From NCBI RefSeq assembly GCF_000310145.2, contig NZ_AMXA01000027.1, positions 1 through 52,852 on the forward strand: a stretch of 52,852 nucleotides of DNA, written 5' to 3'. Source of the stretch: Thauera sp. 28. GTDB lineage: Bacteria; Pseudomonadota; Gammaproteobacteria; Burkholderiales; Rhodocyclaceae. Made by a program: the position numbers and the translations under genes. Positions 7,928 to 38,727 of the stretch are shown in pieces. The first letter of the stretch is position 1. Every line of letters begins with the position of its first letter. The notes beneath the pieces are model-generated. The model was not told the origin of the DNA and made no database searches. It saw nothing but the letters and a program-made list of their open reading frames with translations.

Positions 7928-8019
7928 CTGCAGGAGCGGCACAAGCCGCGAGGTTCTGAAGGCGACGCGGCCAGCCGGAGCCAGGCCGAAAGGCTCACGG
8001 CTGGCGCCGCTCCTACAGG
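7928..8019. repeat. REP-like palindromic element, copy 1 (gshA-gshB gap)
   Basis: The left arm at about 7928-7953 (CAGGAGCGGCACAAGCCGCG core) and the right arm at about 7992-8019 (CGGCTGGCGCCGCTCCTACA core) face each other across some 38 bases. The same arm sequences occur at 31132-31278 and 37021-37157. Transcripts would fold into a long hairpin between gshA and gshB and could affect relative expression. Confidence 0.85.
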
Positions 8020-8030
8020 GCCGGGGAGCA

Positions 8031-9329
8031 TCACACGGCCAGCACTTCCTCCTCCACCGGCGCGGTCTCCTCGATCTCCACCGAGGCAGCCAGCAGCGCC
8101 AGGCGGGCGACCACGCCGTAGGCATAAAAACGATTCGGCGGAGCGTCAGGCCCCTGGGCAGCGTCGGGCAGGGTGCAGCAGGTCTCGAACGCCAACGGCT
8201 TGAAGTGCATCCCAGGGGCGTTGAGGTTCTCGTCGCGGCCGCGCTCCGTATGCACCCTGTAGAAGCCGCCCACCACGTAGTGGTCCATCATGTAGACCAC
8301 CGGTTCGGCGACCCCGTCCTCCACCGTCTCGAAGGTGTGCACGCCCTCCTGGATGATCACCTCGTGCACCTGCAGTCCCTCCTTGACCACCGCCATCTTG
8401 TTGCGCTGGCGGCGGTTGAGGCCAACGACTTCGGACGCATCCTTCACCGTCATCACGCCCATGCCGTAGGTGCCGGCATCGGCCTTGACGACCACGAAGG
8501 GCTGGTCGGTCACGCCATATTCCTTGTACTTGGCGCGGATGCGGGTGAGCAGCGAATCGACCTGGGCCGCCAGGCACTCCTCGCCGGTACGCTCCTGGAA
8601 GTTGATCTGCCCGCACACGCCGAACTCGGGGTTGATGCGCCAGGGGTCGATGCCGATCTCTTCCGCGAAGGCGCGCGCCACACGGTCATAGGCGGCTGCA
8701 TGCCTGGACTTGCGGCGCGAGTGCCAGCCTGCGTGCAGCGGCGGGATCAGCCACTGCTCGTCGAGCCCCTTGAGCACGTCGGGGACACCGGCAGACAGGT
8801 CATTGTTGAGCAGCACCGCGCACGGTTCGAAGTTGTCCAGGCCAACGCGGCCGCCACGGCGACGCAGCGGCTCCAGCGTCAGGGTGGCGCCATTGGTCAG
8901 CTCGAGCACGGTCGGCTCTGCAATCTCGGGCAGCAGACTGCCAATGCGCACATCGAGCCCGGTCAGGCGCAGGATGGACACCAGCTTGGCGACGTTCTGC
9001 AGGTAGAACTGGTTGCGGGTGTGGTTCTCGGGGATCAGCAGCAGCTTGCCTGCATCCGGGCAGATACGCTCGATCGCGGCCTGCGCCGCCTGCACGCACA
9101 AGGGCATGAAGGCATCGTTGAGGTTGTTGAAGCCACCCGGAAACAGGTTGAGGTCGACCGGCGCGAGCTTGAAGCCGGAGTTGCGCAGATCGGTGGAGCC
9201 GTAGAAGGGGGGCATGTGATCCTGCCACTGGGTACGGAACCACTTCTCGATGTCGCAGGCATTGTCGAGGAACTGGCGCTCGAGCTCGAGCAGAGGGCCG
9301 GTGAGTGCGGTGGTGAGGTGCGGGACCAT
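8031..9329 (-). CDS. gshA: Glutamate-cysteine ligase, proteobacterial GshA type
   Basis: 432 residues. Catalyses ATP-dependent ligation of glutamate and cysteine, the first and rate-limiting step of glutathione synthesis. It belongs to the beta/alphaproteobacterial type, distinct from the E. coli enzyme. Diagnostic stretches are FYGSTDLRNSGFKLAPVDLN, LFPGGFNNLND, IPENHTRNQFYLQNV, PFVVVKADAGTYGMGVMTV and EPVVYMMDHYVVGGFYRVH. ATG 9329 is preceded by GAGAG at suitable spacing. The C-terminus ends in an acidic tail (EETAPVEEEVLAV). It is upstream of gshB on the same strand, so the two likely share a transcript through the repeat-containing gap. Confidence 0.96.
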   Translation of the reverse strand: MVPHLTTALTGPLLELERQFLDNACDIEKWFRTQWQDHMPPFYGSTDLRNSGFKLAPVDLNLFPGGFNNLNDAFMPLCVQAAQAAIERICPDAGKLLLIPENHTRNQFYLQNVAKLVSILRLTGLDVRIGSLLPEIAEPTVLELTNGATLTLEPLRRRGGRVGLDNFEPCAVLLNNDLSAGVPDVLKGLDEQWLIPPLHAGWHSRRKSRHAAAYDRVARAFAEEIGIDPWRINPEFGVCGQINFQERTGEECLAAQVDSLLTRIRAKYKEYGVTDQPFVVVKADAGTYGMGVMTVKDASEVVGLNRRQRNKMAVVKEGLQVHEVIIQEGVHTFETVEDGVAEPVVYMMDHYVVGGFYRVHTERGRDENLNAPGMHFKPLAFETCCTLPDAAQGPDAPPNRFYAYGVVARLALLAASVEIEETAPVEEEVLAV

Positions 9330-30201: not shown

Positions 30202-31076
30202 GCGTCCCCCCTTGCGCCGACGAAGGCCAGGATGTGGCCTGCGCAGTCCGCCGCACGCGACACCGGCAGCGCATGGCCGCTGCCCTCCAGCACCTGCAGG
30301 CGCGCCTGCGGCAGGGCTTGTGCCAACCTGTAGGCCGCAGCCACGGGCATCAGCGCGTCCTGGTCGCCGTGCAGCAGCAGCACCGGCTGACGGATCCCGC
30401 CCAGCAGCGGACGCAGGTCGGCCGCGGCTAGGATCGCCAGGCCGTCTTCGAATGGGTTCGGCGCGGCGGACCTGCCGACGCCAGGGCGTAGCCCGTCGTC
30501 GGCCGCCTGGCCAGCGCAGAGGCCCTCCTGCGCGCCCGGACTGAGGCACTGCGCCAGCGCCTGCTGTACCACCCGGCGTCGTGGCTCGCCGATGCATTGC
30601 AAGGCCAGGAAGCGCGCCAGTGTTGCCGCAGGGGCCGAGGCGTAGTCGCGCTGAAAGGCGTCTACCACTTCGGCCTGCAGCCCGGGCCAACCCGTGTCGT
30701 CTGCCACGAAGCGCGCCGTGCCGGCAAGCAGGACGAGGCGCGACACCTTGTGCGGATGGCGGCAGGCGATGTCGAGCGCGAGCATCGCCCCGAGCGACCA
30801 GCCCACCAGCACCGAAGCGTCGGCAAGGCCTGCGGCGAGGGCATCCGCCCAATCCTCCAGCCTGGCGGCTCGGATCGGAGGCGCCCCTTCATGTCCCGGC
30901 AGTGCCAGGGTGCGCACCACCTGCCCATGCAGACTGGCTTCGAGCGCAGCGTACACCCGTGGCGACATCGCCCAGCCATGCACCAGGGCGATTTCCGCAG
31001 CAACACCCGCGCATGCGGACGCAGCGGCGCGGGCCGGCGCGGACACGACAGGGGTCTCGATGGGGGCTGCAGTCAT
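30198..31076 (-). CDS. bioH: Pimeloyl-ACP methyl ester esterase BioH
   Basis: 292 residues, alpha/beta hydrolase. Cleaves the methyl ester of pimeloyl-ACP, ending chain growth in biotin synthesis. The nucleophile is Ser94 in VGWSLGAM, with the acid in LLHGDQDALMP and the His in GSGHALPVS. IALVHGWAMSPRVY supplies the oxyanion loop. There is an N-terminal extension of about 28 residues rich in Ala and Pro, and a Gly-rich insert (GLRPGVGRSAAPNPFEDGLA) in the cap region. ATG 31076 is chosen over an upstream TTG. It heads the bioH-bioC-methyltransferase operon; its upstream region is filled with REP-like repeats. Confidence 0.93.
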   Translation of the reverse strand: MTAAPIETPVVSAPARAAASACAGVAAEIALVHGWAMSPRVYAALEASLHGQVVRTLALPGHEGAPPIRAARLEDWADALAAGLADASVLVGWSLGAMLALDIACRHPHKVSRLVLLAGTARFVADDTGWPGLQAEVVDAFQRDYASAPAATLARFLALQCIGEPRRRVVQQALAQCLSPGAQEGLCAGQAADDGLRPGVGRSAAPNPFEDGLAILAAADLRPLLGGIRQPVLLLHGDQDALMPVAAAYRLAQALPQARLQVLEGSGHALPVSRAADCAGHILAFVGARGDA

Positions 31077-31131
31077 GGTTTGGGCGCAAACGCTGCGCAC
31101 GGACGACAAACGAACGGGCGTGCATTGTAAA

Positions 31132-31278
31132 GGCTCGCGCCGCTACCACGGCGGGAACAAACGCGGCGCGCTCCCCTGTAGGAGCGGCGCCAGCCGCGAG
31201 CCTTTTGTCGCCCCCCCGCACCACATCGCCTTCAACCCCTCGCGGCTCGCGCCGCTCCCACGGCGGGAACAAACGCGG
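31132..31278. repeat. REP-like composite element, copy 2 (bioH / acyl-ligase divergent gap)
   Basis: A half element (31132-31166) and a full palindrome (31175-31263). The 35-base unit at 31132-31166 recurs at 31244-31278 with one mismatch (core GGCTCGCGCCGCT, then ACGGCGGGAACAAACGCGG). The full element has a left arm with GTAGGAGCGGCGCCAGCCGC and a right arm with CGCGGCTCGCGCCGCTCCCA. It occupies half of the 292-base region that must also hold promoters for bioH and the acyl-ligase gene. Confidence 0.88.
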
Positions 31279-31368
31279 CCCGCCCTCCCGTTGGAGCTTC
31301 ATGGCTTGCCGTGTCGGTGTCCCGGCGTTACCTTGGCCGTCTGCCTGGCAAGCACGAGGAGTCCCGCG

Positions 31369-34251
31369 ATGCCCACGCCTCACCTGGCCGACCCGCACGA
31401 TGCCGCGCAGCTGCTGGCCTTGGTCGACGCACTGGTCCGCGAGCTGCATCCCGGCGCAATGCGCAGGGCGACGCTCGACTGCGCGCTCGACCGCGACCTC
31501 GGGCTCGACAGTCTCAGCCGGGTCGAGCTGCTGGCCCGCATCGAGCGCCACTACGGCGTACGCCTGCCAACCACGGTGCTCGACAGCGCCGAAACGCCGC
31601 GCGACCTGCTTGCCGCCCTCGCCGATGCGCCCGCAGGCTCGCCGCTGTCCCAGGCCACACGGCGCGCAACCGGTGACGCGCCAGCCTCCACCTCAACCGT
31701 CACGGATCCAGTCAGCGAACCTTCGGCCGGCATGCCCTCAGGCGCGGCCACCTTGCTCGAGGTGCTCGACTGGCATCTCGCCCGCCACCCGGAGCGCTGC
31801 CACGTACGCTTCCTGGCCGGCGACGACGAGGTCGAGACCCTGAGCCATGCCGAACTCGCCAACGGCGCGCGCAAGGTCGCCGCCGCGCTGCGCGGCCTGG
31901 GCGTGCAACCGGGCGACTGTGTCGCGCTGATGCTGCCAACGGGGCTGGACTTCTTCCGCAGCTTCTTCGGCATCCTGTTCGCCGGCGCGGTGCCGGTGCC
32001 GATGTACCCGCCCGCACGACCGGCGCAGATCGAAGAGCACCTGCGCCGCCAGGCCGGCATCCTGCGCAACTGCGCGGCCCCTGTGCTGATCACCTTCGAC
32101 CGTGTGCGCCCCCTGGCCAGCGCCCTCGCCGGGCTGGCGCCCGAGCTCGTGCATGTCACCACGCCCGCAGCGCTGGCGGCGTCCCCTGCCGCCAGCGCGC
32201 CCGCCGTGGCCTCGGCGCCGCGCCATCCGGCGCGCGCACGCGAACTCGCGCTCATCCAGTACACCTCGGGTTCCACCGGCGACCCCAAGGGCGTGGCGCT
32301 CAGCCACGCCAACCTGCTCGCCAACATCCGCGCCTGGGGGCTGGCCGCCAAGGTCGAGGCGCGCGACGTGTGCGTGAGCTGGCTGCCGCTGTACCACGAC
32401 ATGGGCCTGATCGGCACGTGGCTCGGCAGTCTCTACCATGGCTGCACGCTGGTGCTGATGTCGCCACTCGACTTCCTCGCCCGCCCCGAGCGCTGGCTGT
32501 GGGCGATCCACCACTACCGCGGGACGGTCACCGCCGCACCCAACTTCGCCTATGAACTGTGCGTCAAGCGCCTCGCCGGTACCGACCTGGCGGGCCTCGA
32601 CCTGTCGAGCTGGCGGCTGGCGGCCAACGGCGCCGAGCCGGTCAACCCCGACACGCTCGAACGCTTCGCCCACGCCTTTGCCCCCTATGGTCTGAACGCC
32701 GGCAGCCTGACACCGGTGTATGGCCTGGCCGAGTGCTCGGTCGGCCTGTGCGTACCGCCCCCCGGCCGCGGCGTACGTATCGACCGCGTCGAGCGCACGC
32801 CGCTGACCCGCGAGGGGCATGCACTTGCAGCTGACGGCGCGGCAGGAACGGGCGCACACGATGACGGTGGCGAGGTACTGCGCCTGGTGTCCTGCGGCCC
32901 TCCGCTGCCCGGCCACGAACTGCGCATCGTGGACGCAGAGGGCCGCCCGCTGCCCGAACGCCATGTCGGCGAACTGGAGTTCCGCGGCCCCTCAGCCACC
33001 GCCGGCTATTACCGCAACGCGGCGGCGAGCGCCGCCCTGTTCCACGACGGCTGGCTGGTGACTGGCGACCATGCCTACCTCGCCGACGGCGAGCTCTACA
33101 TCACTGGCCGGGCGAAGGAGCTCATCATCCGCGCCGGCCGCAACCTCTACCCCTACGACCTCGAGCAGGCAATCGGCGACCTGCCGGGCGTACGCAAGGG
33201 CTGCGTGGCCGTGTTCGGCGTATCGGACCCGACCAGCGGCGAGGAGCGCCTGGTGGTGGTCGCCGAAACCCGGCTCGAGGACCAAGCCGAACGCCAGGCG
33301 CTCGAGGCCGGCATCGTCGCCGCGGCGATGACCCAACTCGACCTCGCCCCCGACGCCATCGTGCTCGCCCCCCCGCATGCGGTCCTCAAGACCTCCAGTG
33401 GCAAGATCCGCCGCGCCGCGGTGCGCGAGGCCTGGCTGGCCGGGCGCCTGGGTGAGCCGGTGCGTGCGGCGTGGCTGCAGGTGCTACGCCTGCACACCGC
33501 CAGCCTGGCCGGCCGCATCGGCAAGCGGGCACGCGCGCTGCCGGGCGTTCTCTACGCCGTCTGGGCCTGGGCCTGGGTCGCGCCGCTGGCCACCCTCGCC
33601 GCCATCGGCATCATCGGCCTGCCCGGCCTCGGTCAGCGCTGGGCGCTCGCCCACCGCCTCGCCCGCCTCTACCGCTGGCTATGCGCCTGCCCGCTGCGGA
33701 TCGAAGGCCTGGACAAGCTGCCCGCGGGCAACTGCATCCTGGTCGCCAACCACGCCAGCTACATCGACGGCTTCGTACTCGCCGCCACGCTGCCACATCC
33801 GGTGCGCTTCATCGCCAAGACCGAGTTGCGCGCCCAGCCGCTGCTGCGCACCCTGCTCGAGCGCATGGGCACCGTATTCGTCGACCGCTTCGACACCCGG
33901 CAGAGCCTGGAAGATGCACGCACGCTCGCCACACATGCCGAAGCCGGCGTGCCGCTGCTGTTCTTTGCCGAAGGCACCTTCGGGCCCGAGGAGGGGTTGC
34001 GCGCCTTCCGCCTCGGCGCCTTCCAGGTCGCTGCACGCCAGGGCCTGCCAGTGGTGCCGGTCGCACTCGCGGGCACGCGCGCCGTACTGCGCAGCGGCGG
34101 TTGGCAGCCGCAGCGCGGGCGGCTGGGCGTGAGCATCTGCGCGCCACTGCAACCGGCAGGCGAGGACTGGCACGACCTGCTCGCGCTGCGCGATGCGGTA
34201 CGCGCGCGCATTCTTGCGCACTGCGGCGAGCACGACGCACTGCAGGACTGA
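31369..34251 (+). CDS. Fused acyl carrier protein / acyl-AMP ligase / PlsC-type acyltransferase
   Basis: 960 residues. (1) An acyl carrier domain, about 10-90, with phosphopantetheine site Ser48 in DRDLGLDSLSRVELL. (2) An adenylate-forming ligase, about 125-690: P-loop YTSGSTGDPKGV near 298, SWLPLYHDMGLIG, APNFAYELCVKRL (as in fatty acyl-AMP ligases), GRAKELIIRAGRNLYP and catalytic Lys679 in TSSGKIRR. (3) A hydrophobic membrane hairpin, about 720-760. (4) An acyltransferase with His795-Asp800 (NHASYIDG) and FFAEGT at 865-870. It could activate a free fatty acid, load it on its own carrier and pass it to a glycerolipid. The domain order is the reverse of E. coli Aas. ATG 31369 has GAGGAG upstream. 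Confidence 0.93.
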   Translation: MPTPHLADPHDAAQLLALVDALVRELHPGAMRRATLDCALDRDLGLDSLSRVELLARIERHYGVRLPTTVLDSAETPRDLLAALADAPAGSPLSQATRRATGDAPASTSTVTDPVSEPSAGMPSGAATLLEVLDWHLARHPERCHVRFLAGDDEVETLSHAELANGARKVAAALRGLGVQPGDCVALMLPTGLDFFRSFFGILFAGAVPVPMYPPARPAQIEEHLRRQAGILRNCAAPVLITFDRVRPLASALAGLAPELVHVTTPAALAASPAASAPAVASAPRHPARARELALIQYTSGSTGDPKGVALSHANLLANIRAWGLAAKVEARDVCVSWLPLYHDMGLIGTWLGSLYHGCTLVLMSPLDFLARPERWLWAIHHYRGTVTAAPNFAYELCVKRLAGTDLAGLDLSSWRLAANGAEPVNPDTLERFAHAFAPYGLNAGSLTPVYGLAECSVGLCVPPPGRGVRIDRVERTPLTREGHALAADGAAGTGAHDDGGEVLRLVSCGPPLPGHELRIVDAEGRPLPERHVGELEFRGPSATAGYYRNAAASAALFHDGWLVTGDHAYLADGELYITGRAKELIIRAGRNLYPYDLEQAIGDLPGVRKGCVAVFGVSDPTSGEERLVVVAETRLEDQAERQALEAGIVAAAMTQLDLAPDAIVLAPPHAVLKTSSGKIRRAAVREAWLAGRLGEPVRAAWLQVLRLHTASLAGRIGKRARALPGVLYAVWAWAWVAPLATLAAIGIIGLPGLGQRWALAHRLARLYRWLCACPLRIEGLDKLPAGNCILVANHASYIDGFVLAATLPHPVRFIAKTELRAQPLLRTLLERMGTVFVDRFDTRQSLEDARTLATHAEAGVPLLFFAEGTFGPEEGLRAFRLGAFQVAARQGLPVVPVALAGTRAVLRSGGWQPQRGRLGVSICAPLQPAGEDWHDLLALRDAVRARILAHCGEHDALQD

Positions 34252-36402: not shown

Positions 36403-38670
36403 TCAGCGCCACATGTCGCGCATCTTCGCCGCGAGGTCGACCGCCGCCTGGCGCGAGGCGGGCGAGCCCTGCAACTGCGGCTGAGGGGGCGGCCAGCTCA
36501 GCTGCTCGAAGTGCCCGAGCAGGCGGTTGGGAATGAAACGGCTGCGCCCGGCATACACATGGCGATCGCCCATGCCGGCCTGCTGGGTGACGTAGAAACG
36601 CTGCGGCACGATCAGGTCCAGGCTGTCCCGGGCACGCGTCATCGCCACGTAGAGCAGGCGGCGCTCCTCCTCGACCTCGGCGCTGTTGCGGGTGGCAACA
36701 TCGGACGGGATACAGCCGTCGACCACGTTGAGCACGCTCACCGCGTTCCACTCCTGGCCCTTGGCCGAATGCATGGTCGACAGGATCAGGTAGTCCTCGT
36801 CGAGCAGCGGCATGCCGGCTTCGCCGCTGGTGGCGCTGGGCGGGTCGAGCGTGAGCTCGGTGAGGAAACGCTGTCGGCTCGGGCTGGTGGCAGCGATGCG
36901 GGCGAGCTGCTGGATGTCGAGCACGCGCACCGCGAAGTCGTCGTACAGGCGTGGCATCTGCGCCTCGTACCAGCGGCAGGCGAGCTCGAAATCCGCCGGC
37001 CACTGCGGACCGGCGGCAAGGCTCACGGCTTGCGCCGCGCCTACACCCCCCCCCTCGGGTCGCCCCCGTAGGAGCGGCGCAAGCCGCGAGGGGTCGAAGG
37101 CGGTGTGGTCTGGCGGCGTTGCCGAAAGGCTCGCGGCTCGCGCCGCTCCCACAGCGGCGGCGGCAGATTCGGAGGGCGGCATTCTGCCTGCGAGGCAATC
37201 GATCAGCGCGGCAAATTCCAGCCAGCCGGCGCGCGCGGCCTCCGGCACGGGCTGCTCGGCAAGCAGCGCGCAGCCCTCGGGAGCGGCACACACATTGTCG
37301 AGCACGCGGCCCGCGGTCTTGGGCCCGACGCCGGCAAGCAGCTGGATGGCGCGAAAACCCGAAACGCGGTCGCGCGGATTCTCGGCCCAGCGCAGCACGG
37401 CAAGCACGTCCTTGATGTGGGCGGCCTCGAGGAACTTGAGCCCACCGAACTTCACGAAGGGCACGTTGCGCCGGGTGAGCTCCATCTCCAGCCGCGCGCT
37501 GTGCGCCGAAGCGCGGAACAGCACCGCCTGCTGCTTGAGCTTGAGCCCCTCCTCGCGCCGCGCCAGCACGCCATCGACGACGAAGGTCGCCTGGTCGGCC
37601 TCGTCCTTGACTGCCACGATGCGTGGGCGCTGGGCGGACTGGCGCTCCGACCACAGGTTCTTGGTGAAGCGCTCGGCGGCGAGCGCGATCACCGCGTTGG
37701 CCGCCTCCAGGATTGGCCTGGTGGAACGGTAGTTCTGCTCCAGCGTCACCACGTGCGCTGGCGGATCGAAGGCGGCCGGAAAGTCGAGGATGTTGCGCAC
37801 CGTCGCGCCACGGAAGGCGTAGATGGACTGCGCGTCGTCGCCGACCACGGTCAGGCCACGCCCATCGGGCTTCATCGCCATCAGAATCGCCGCCTGCAGG
37901 TGGTTGGTGTCCTGATACTCGTCGACCAGCACATGGTCGAACAGGCCGCCGATCTCGGCCCCGAGCGCCGGCTCGGCCACCATCTGCGCCCAGTACAGCA
38001 GCAGATCGTCGTAATCGAGCACCTGTTGCGCCTGCTTGGCCTCGACGTAGGCCCGGAACAGGCGTTTGAGCTCGTCCTCCCACTCCGCACACCATGGGAA
38101 GCTCGCCTGCAGCACCTCGGCCAGCGGCGCGCGGGTATTGACCACCGCCGAATAGATCGCCAGGCAGGTGCCCTTCTGCGGAAAGCGCTGCCGGGTGGTC
38201 GACAGCCCCGCCTCGTGGCGCACCAGGTTCATCAGGTCCGCCGAGTCCTCGCGGTCGTGGATCGTGAAGCCTGGGTCGAGCCCGATGCGGCCGGCGTAGT
38301 CGCGCAGCAGGCGTGCGCCAATGGCGTGGAAGGTACCGGACCAGCGCAGCTCGGCCTGCGCCAGGCCGGGCCGGCCGGCAGAGGCCTGGGCCAGGATGCG
38401 CCGCACCCGCCGCCCCATCTCGTCCGCGGCGCGGCGCGAAAAGGTGAGCAACAGGATGCGTGCGGGATCGGCACCGTTCTCGATCAGGTGCGCCACACGG
38501 TGGGCCAGGGTATTGGTCTTGCCCGAACCGGCGCCAGCAATCACCAGCAGCGGAGCGGCCGGCCCGCTGGCACCGGCATGGCAGACCGCCTCGCGCTGCG
38601 CCGGGTTGAGCGCGTCCAGCGGCGAAGACGTGGCGGAAACGGGTGATTCGGGAGACGGGGGGGCGTACAT
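36403..38670 (-). CDS. UvrD/Rep-like superfamily 1A DNA helicase with repeat-derived insert
   Basis: 755 residues. 3'-5' DNA helicase of the UvrD/PcrA/Rep group. Motifs in order: Q-motif LNPAQREAV, Walker [78 protein letters not shown] and [11 protein letters not shown]. All are intact. Residues about 505-550 are encoded by a REP-like repeat (37021-37157) that keeps the frame open and adds a Ser/Ala/Pro/Arg-rich segment in the 2B region. ATG 38670 is used; ATG 38700 is also possible. A TACAAT box lies just upstream of the chosen start, which would make the mRNA nearly leaderless. Confidence 0.92.
37021..37157. repeat. REP-like composite element, copy 3, inside the helicase gene
   Basis: A degenerate half element (37021-37046, CTCACGGCTTGCGCCGC core) is followed by a full palindrome: left arm 37066-37092 (GTAGGAGCGGCGCAAGCCGC) and right arm 37128-37157 (CTCGCGGCTCGCGCCGCTCC). 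The half-plus-full layout is the same as at 31132-31278. The helicase frame reads through it with no stop. Confidence 0.9.
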
Positions 38671-38727
38671 GGCTGTAATTGTATTCAGTCCATCCCGCAT
38701 GCGATAGCCGCTGTGCAGCCTCCCGCT

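Follow-up and report, generated by a model that had tools for sequence, protein, structure and literature searches.

A REP repeat, which normally lies between genes, sits in frame inside a UvrD-like helicase gene of Thauera sp. 28, and this observation, made in an earlier note on the 52,852-nucleotide stretch of contig NZ_AMXA01000027.1 that we call the window, is confirmed by our analysis. We regard it as highly probable that a REPIN-type element of the genome's own family inserted into the 2B loop of this accessory helicase, kept the reading frame and was tolerated. The features on which this reading is based are listed in Table 1.

Table 1. Features of the helicase gene, its REP-derived insert and related repeats (positions in the window)
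Feature	Position	Strand	Remarks
UvrD/PcrA-like SF1A helicase gene, accessory paralogue	36403..38700	-	765 aa; Pfam UvrD-helicase and UvrD_C
REP/REPIN-derived in-frame insert	37018..37164	-	147 bp, residues 513-561; absent from compact orthologues
REP half 1	37130..37152	-	GTGGGAGCGGCGCGAGCCGCGAG, reads VGAARAAS
REP half 2	37068..37090	+	opposite orientation, pairs with half 1; gene strand reads SRLAPLLR
REP half 3	37022..37044	-	slightly diverged, 2 mismatches, reads VGAAQAVS
Run of nine G	37046..37054	-	between halves 2 and 3, inside the insert, in the coding frame
Intergenic REP cluster, same family as the insert	31132..31297		pattern and similarity
Further REP pair of the insert's family	7930..8016		pattern matches

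The gene contains, as had been proposed, a half element plus a full palindrome: three REP halves were found, and the helicase ORF stays open across all of them. Halves 1 and 2 are part of an inverted pair (37061-37090 and 37130-37159) whose 30-nt arms are 87% complementary and are separated by 39 nt. Two of the halves fit the pattern GTRGGAGCGGCGCNAGCCGCGA perfectly. The heads of the three read GTAG, GTAG and GTGG and so conform to GTAG-type REPs, in which an imperfect palindrome of 20-40 bp has GT(A/G)G at its 5' foot. The limits of the insert follow from its best genome matches, which cover positions 4-150 of the query (40 of 177 candidates were scored), and the stretch including its spacers is about 74-79% identical over most of its length to many other places in the genome. 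The earlier note had placed about 46 residues at positions 505-550 of the protein; the location inside the gene holds, whereas the limits now lie at the residues given in Table 1 and the REP-derived part amounts to about 49 residues rich in Ala, Gly, Pro and Arg. With respect to the protein segment from VP to CR, this means 92 residues here as compared to 34 in the shortest compact homologues of the genus, an excess of about 58, and about nine of the added residues lie beyond the REP-derived part.

As is typical of GTAG-type REP/REPIN elements, the insert is an inverted doublet that is able to fold as a hairpin. The strong hairpin expected in the minus-strand mRNA is borne out by prediction, in that 151 nt of gene-strand RNA of the insert, folded alone, form a 25-bp stem at -91.1 kcal/mol, compared to -78.9 +/- 4.1 kcal/mol for shuffled sequences (z -2.96; 0 of 200 shuffles as low). 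Folded as DNA, the insert reaches a z of -2.51, and 4 of 200 shuffles fold equally well. An extragenic location, which is usual for such elements without being defining, does not apply to this copy, which sits inside a gene. The run of nine G within the insert is the only one of this length in the window, where 0.77 would be expected by chance, such that its length is near chance. Loss of one base from it would lead to an immediate stop in the helicase frame, and it is possible that this is a site of slippage or phase variation.

The repeat belongs to a family that is present in the genome in high copy number. Within the window, 7 sites fit the REP pattern at up to three mismatches, where shuffles lead one to expect 0.08, and in the genome the looser pattern GTAGGAGCGNCNNNNGNCGCGA finds 143+139 sites at up to one mismatch, as opposed to 3+0 for a reversed-pattern control. 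The intergenic copy at 31132-31278, which the earlier note had called nearly the same as the insert, is indeed of the same family, but the two agree by 83% over 94 bp, and "nearly the same" therefore overstates their likeness. Also in the window, a long ORF at 30694-34251 appears by eye to be a fusion of acyl-carrier-like, AMP-ligase-like and PlsC-like acyltransferase parts. Of 369 repeat sites in the genome, 100 were covered in detail. Among the 74 REP clusters surveyed, 25 are no more than 180 bases away from where the sequence stretch stops, in many cases at a real contig end (e.g., L226, L246, L275, L281). The draft seems to be broken at REP arrays, so that the REP counts are probably underestimates.

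Two proteins of the genome carry a Y1 transposase domain. One of them, a RAYT of 151 aa (145 bits in the NCBIfam model NF047646, cut-off 80), lies on contig 55 between the REP sites C55:8263-8391 and 8987-9005, and hence is flanked by REPs as expected of a RAYT. The other (L283:1983-2849 on contig 39, 289 aa) scores 78.5 bits, just below this cut-off, and ends in a C-terminal stretch resembling a helix-turn-helix; no REP cluster was found near it in the stretch L283. The insert thus shares with the REPIN/RAYT system as described in PMC3116915 and PMC2817692 the inverted REP doublets, the GT(A/G)G head, a REP-flanked RAYT and a high copy number. It differs in that REPINs are described there as mostly extragenic, while the helicase copy lies inside a gene and apparently is translated. 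Judging from the sequence, the RAYT transposase of this genome would most likely be the mobilizer of the element.

The host protein meets the description of a UvrD-like SF1A helicase, since both the UvrD-helicase and the UvrD_C domain remain on the two sides of the insert, as the earlier note had stated for the helicase motifs, and since its modelled structure is UvrD-like. An identity as the housekeeping UvrD, PcrA or Rep is out, because all three scores fall below the curated equivalog cut-offs (PcrA 367 versus 911, UvrD 320 versus 1144, Rep 292 versus 951 bits). The nearest named record is from an Azoarcus MAG, at 77%. An AlphaFold2 model built from 47 sequences has a mean pLDDT of 84 and resembles UvrD-DNA structures (2is1_A, TM 0.84 by target length). 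In this model, residues 512-524 come out as a helix and residues 524-562 fall below a pLDDT of 50. The alignment to E. coli UvrD ends at residue 505, which faces residue 470 of UvrD, and we take the limits of the 2B domain in the latter to be approximately 378-550. The GIG motif of 2B is found at 414-422 of E. coli UvrD (PMC5973834). Taken together, these positions place the insert most likely in the 2B domain. Most of the segment falls into a low-confidence loop placed in 2B, in agreement with the tolerant 2B loop that had been suggested, and the model indicates that it probably is a mostly disordered surface loop.

The gene was found in 21 of the 29 genus genomes searched, this one included, the others showing at least 79% identity. 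In G001, the match is truncated at the start of the gene, in G018 just a C-terminal part is present, at the end of a contig, and for G017, in which one TGA was flagged in the matched stretch, an open ORF of 710 aa was used. In seven of the 29 (G002, G003, G004, G008, G012, G023 and G028), only distant paralogues were found, G012 being 68% complete. One of these seven, G008, is the genome of the panel that is richest in REP sites (493+550). The 21 orthologues fall into three classes, namely 13 with a compact loop (34-39 residues from VP to CR), three with a longer loop that does not carry REPs (G011 82, G022 80 and G025 63 residues) and five with REPs, which besides this genome are G013 (115), G016 (90), G021 (92) and G001 (67). 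Outside the genus, the segment was compact (33-39 residues) in 25 of 25 family loci inspected, which come from 53 genomes outside the genus among 58 of 199 with a match, and in 15 of 15 named records, the first 15 of 80 loci. The expectation that homologues would in many cases lack the segment is borne out by these empty sites.

In each of the five REP-bearing genomes, 0 of 300 codon shuffles reached the REP score of the loop. By eye, the loop of G013 has four REP halves and that of G001 one, and in G021 and G016 there are either intact and decayed halves or decayed ones only. Among the genomes with the gene, REP-bearing loops occur in five of six that are rich in REPs and in none of 15 that are poor in them (Fisher p 0.0003, relatedness ignored); the sixth REP-rich one, G024, has a compact loop. 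That the long loops of G011, G022 and G025 derive from decayed REPs is not supported, since 238, 81 and 184 of 300 shuffles, respectively, score as high. The loop of G011 is not repetitive, as it matches itself and has one weak match in G011.

Purifying selection acts on both flanks of the insert, and the constraint on the two sides is similar. Compared with nine relatives, the gene yields dN/dS values of 0.105-0.199 ahead of the insert and 0.093-0.184 beyond it, though such pairwise values also count divergence older than the insertion. Four pairs of compact genes give similar values, 0.129-0.220 before and 0.085-0.153 after the loop position. The loop itself changes fast: in the clade of REP-bearing relatives, its identity is 47-64% as compared to 93-98% for the rest of the gene, and its dN/dS is 0.62-1.09, a ratio by which neutrality is poorly measured, since the loop dS (0.27-0.73) exceeds that elsewhere in the gene (0.08-0.35) and the loop alignment thus is probably in part non-homologous. 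Because the flanks are under purifying selection, the insert appears to be tolerated and roughly neutral.

REPs in gene interiors were surveyed in this genome over 61 stretches, namely the window and 60 others. These contain 74 REP clusters, of which 49 lay at a sufficient distance from a stretch end, and the helicase cluster was the only one with good coding signal on both sides in one open frame. G013 has 40 different clusters, 37 of them testable, with the helicase again the only interior case. For the coding test, a repeat had to be flanked by 50 codons or more on both sides (40 in G013), and the codon model was derived from the very stretches under study, so that insertions near gene ends are missed. 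The helicase cluster was included by choice in both surveys, such that the independent result of this partial survey is 0 of 48 further testable clusters here and 0 of 36 in G013; the search for other genes with an in-frame repeat, which the earlier note had recommended, thus came out empty for gene interiors. Besides the helicase ORF, 25 other ORFs span REPs (26 in total); seven of them were checked in Pfam and are not counted, since three were without a family and four had a family only downstream of the repeat. Locus L235 was flagged by the flank test and was rejected because its cluster contains five stops. At this locus (L235:2070-2536, contig 4), an ORF that by eye resembles an enoyl-CoA hydratase ends in a nine-site REP cluster, which supplies its last residues and the stop, so that the REPs here code for a C-terminus. 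An ORF resembling an acyl-CoA dehydrogenase, likewise named by eye, starts beyond the cluster. The surveys suggest that genes of these genomes very rarely have REPs in their interior and that such REPs concentrate in one tolerant loop.

Whether the five REP-bearing loops go back to one insertion or to several can be addressed by comparing their repeats. Own-family origin was tested for this genome and for G013. With 40 candidates scored per REP-rich genome, the G013 loop has 214 matches in G013, 265 in G008, 175 in G016, 108 in G021, 71 in G024, 53 in G001, 33 in G018 and 9 in this genome, and the discrepancy between 214 and 9 indicates that the loops of G013 and of this genome are from different families. 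In G001, most of the sites listed differ in type from the half in its loop. Furthermore, the order of the REP halves is opposite between this genome and G013. From TCCGCAGTGG onwards, the 3' flank of the insert is identical, as far as the compared excerpt goes, to that of G005, whose loop is compact, and thus resembles a compact allele, unlike the GLPWP or GLRWP of the clade of G001, G013, G016 and G021. In a helicase tree built without the loop (32 rows, consisting of 21 from the genus and 11 of the 25 family loci), the REP label takes two changes. A tree of the rpoB region (4671 columns) rejects a single clade of REP-bearing genomes (p 0.0005); in it, G021 is partial and is placed next to G024, a position that differs from the one it has in the helicase tree, and no match to rpoB was obtained for G011, G022, G025 and G026. 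From this, we infer that the loop was probably hit by REPs at least twice. The competing scenario is a single ancestral insertion in a common ancestor with G001, G013, G016 and G021, followed by replacement of the repeats through gene conversion or repeated insertion and by loss elsewhere. It has some substance, given that a single clade of the five alleles is compatible with the helicase-core tree (p-AU 0.147), and that this genome, G013, G021 and G016 share the frame (VGAAxAA) in which the direct-orientation halves are translated. However, the differing families, the inverted order of the halves, the compact-like 3' flank and the rpoB tree speak against it, as does the rejection of the eight long loops as one clade in the helicase tree (p 0.019, for a group named after the data were seen), and we consider it the less likely, though a serious, alternative.

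How the insert became part of the protein can be pictured as follows. A REPIN-type element consisting of GTAG-family REP halves of this genome would have inserted into the part of the gene that encodes the surface loop of 2B, and it would have become about 49 residues of probably disordered protein, because its length kept the frame and its frames read without a stop; the protein is probably made with the insert. In relatives, REPs are found in the same loop since, as we propose, it is among the few gene-interior places where such insertions survive. A different interpretation would be that the insert is adaptive, the longer 2B loop altering the autoinhibition of the helicase, which comes close to the mutator idea of 2013 (PMC3733652). 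2B is described as a regulatory, autoinhibitory domain in UvrD-family helicases (PMC13238157), the same gene was hit recurrently while hardly any other gene, if any, has REPs in its interior, and according to PMC3733652, chance does not account for the hits in repair genes. On the other hand, recurrence is explained equally well by tolerance, three relatives have long loops without REPs, and in the REP clade the repeats are decaying and the loop ratios are high, bearing in mind the partly non-homologous alignment; an adaptive role thus seems unlikely to us.

It is very improbable that the gene is a pseudogene or that the insert is an assembly artefact. The assembly is a draft of 117 contigs, many of the REP clusters near stretch ends lie at contig ends, and the nine-G run is located within the insert, but the frame is open, the constraint is similar on both sides, and REPs are found in the same loop of four other genomes, one of which is assembled in only 10 contigs. 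A palindrome that arose by chance from a native Ala-rich linker could be envisaged in coding DNA that is rich in G+C, the more so as three relatives have long linkers without REPs. This can practically be dismissed, since two halves fit the family pattern without mismatch, the spacers match as well, and no codon shuffle attains the REP score. Hence, we favor the insertion of an own-family element that was tolerated in the loop.

In-frame REPs are of a kind that is already known. PMC3733652 reported in 2013 that GTAG-tagged REPs occur as dimers or clusters inside ORFs, many of them in replication and repair genes, and names a UvrD/REP helicase among the genes concerned; for GTAG REPs, units located inside genes are also given in Table 1 of that paper. 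For Thauera, it describes REP clusters coding for 43-82 aa, it proposes loops or linkers as REP-tolerant sites, and it mentions recB of two Xanthomonas species as being hit at about the same site. Our case is of the same kind. The statement that a repeat in a repair or replication helicase is unusual therefore has to be tempered: the REP is in frame, but the gene is an accessory paralogue, and the phenomenon has been known for years. What is added here, relative to the passages of PMC3733652 drawn upon, is the comparison allele by allele, together with the estimates of constraint, the RAYT, the finding of empty sites and that of two REP families in a single loop. The known kind is extended by the series of alleles that this loop provides. 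The Rickettsia palindromic elements (RPEs) are alike in being palindromic repeats in frame in protein genes (PMC10969869, PMC3733652). They differ in being of the CGTC type, RPE-4 and RPE-6 being counted among the CGTC REPs in PMC3733652, or in being longer (RPE-1, about 150 bp), while the REPs here are GTAG. Furthermore, nearly half of the RPE copies of R. conorii are reported to lie in genes (PMC10969869, PMC3733652), whereas gene interiors here are almost free of REPs.

A more far-reaching idea, to which we give little credence, is that the 2B loop is a recurrent landing site for at least two REP families in parallel, and that the segments are kept for tuning autoinhibition. If this were true, REP mobility would repeatedly rewire a DNA-processing enzyme. 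The genus Thauera provides a natural series in one gene, comprising the compact loop, fresh REPs, decayed REPs and a long loop without REPs, and this allele series allows one to test whether mobile repeats that turned into protein are neutral filler or have changed the helicase.
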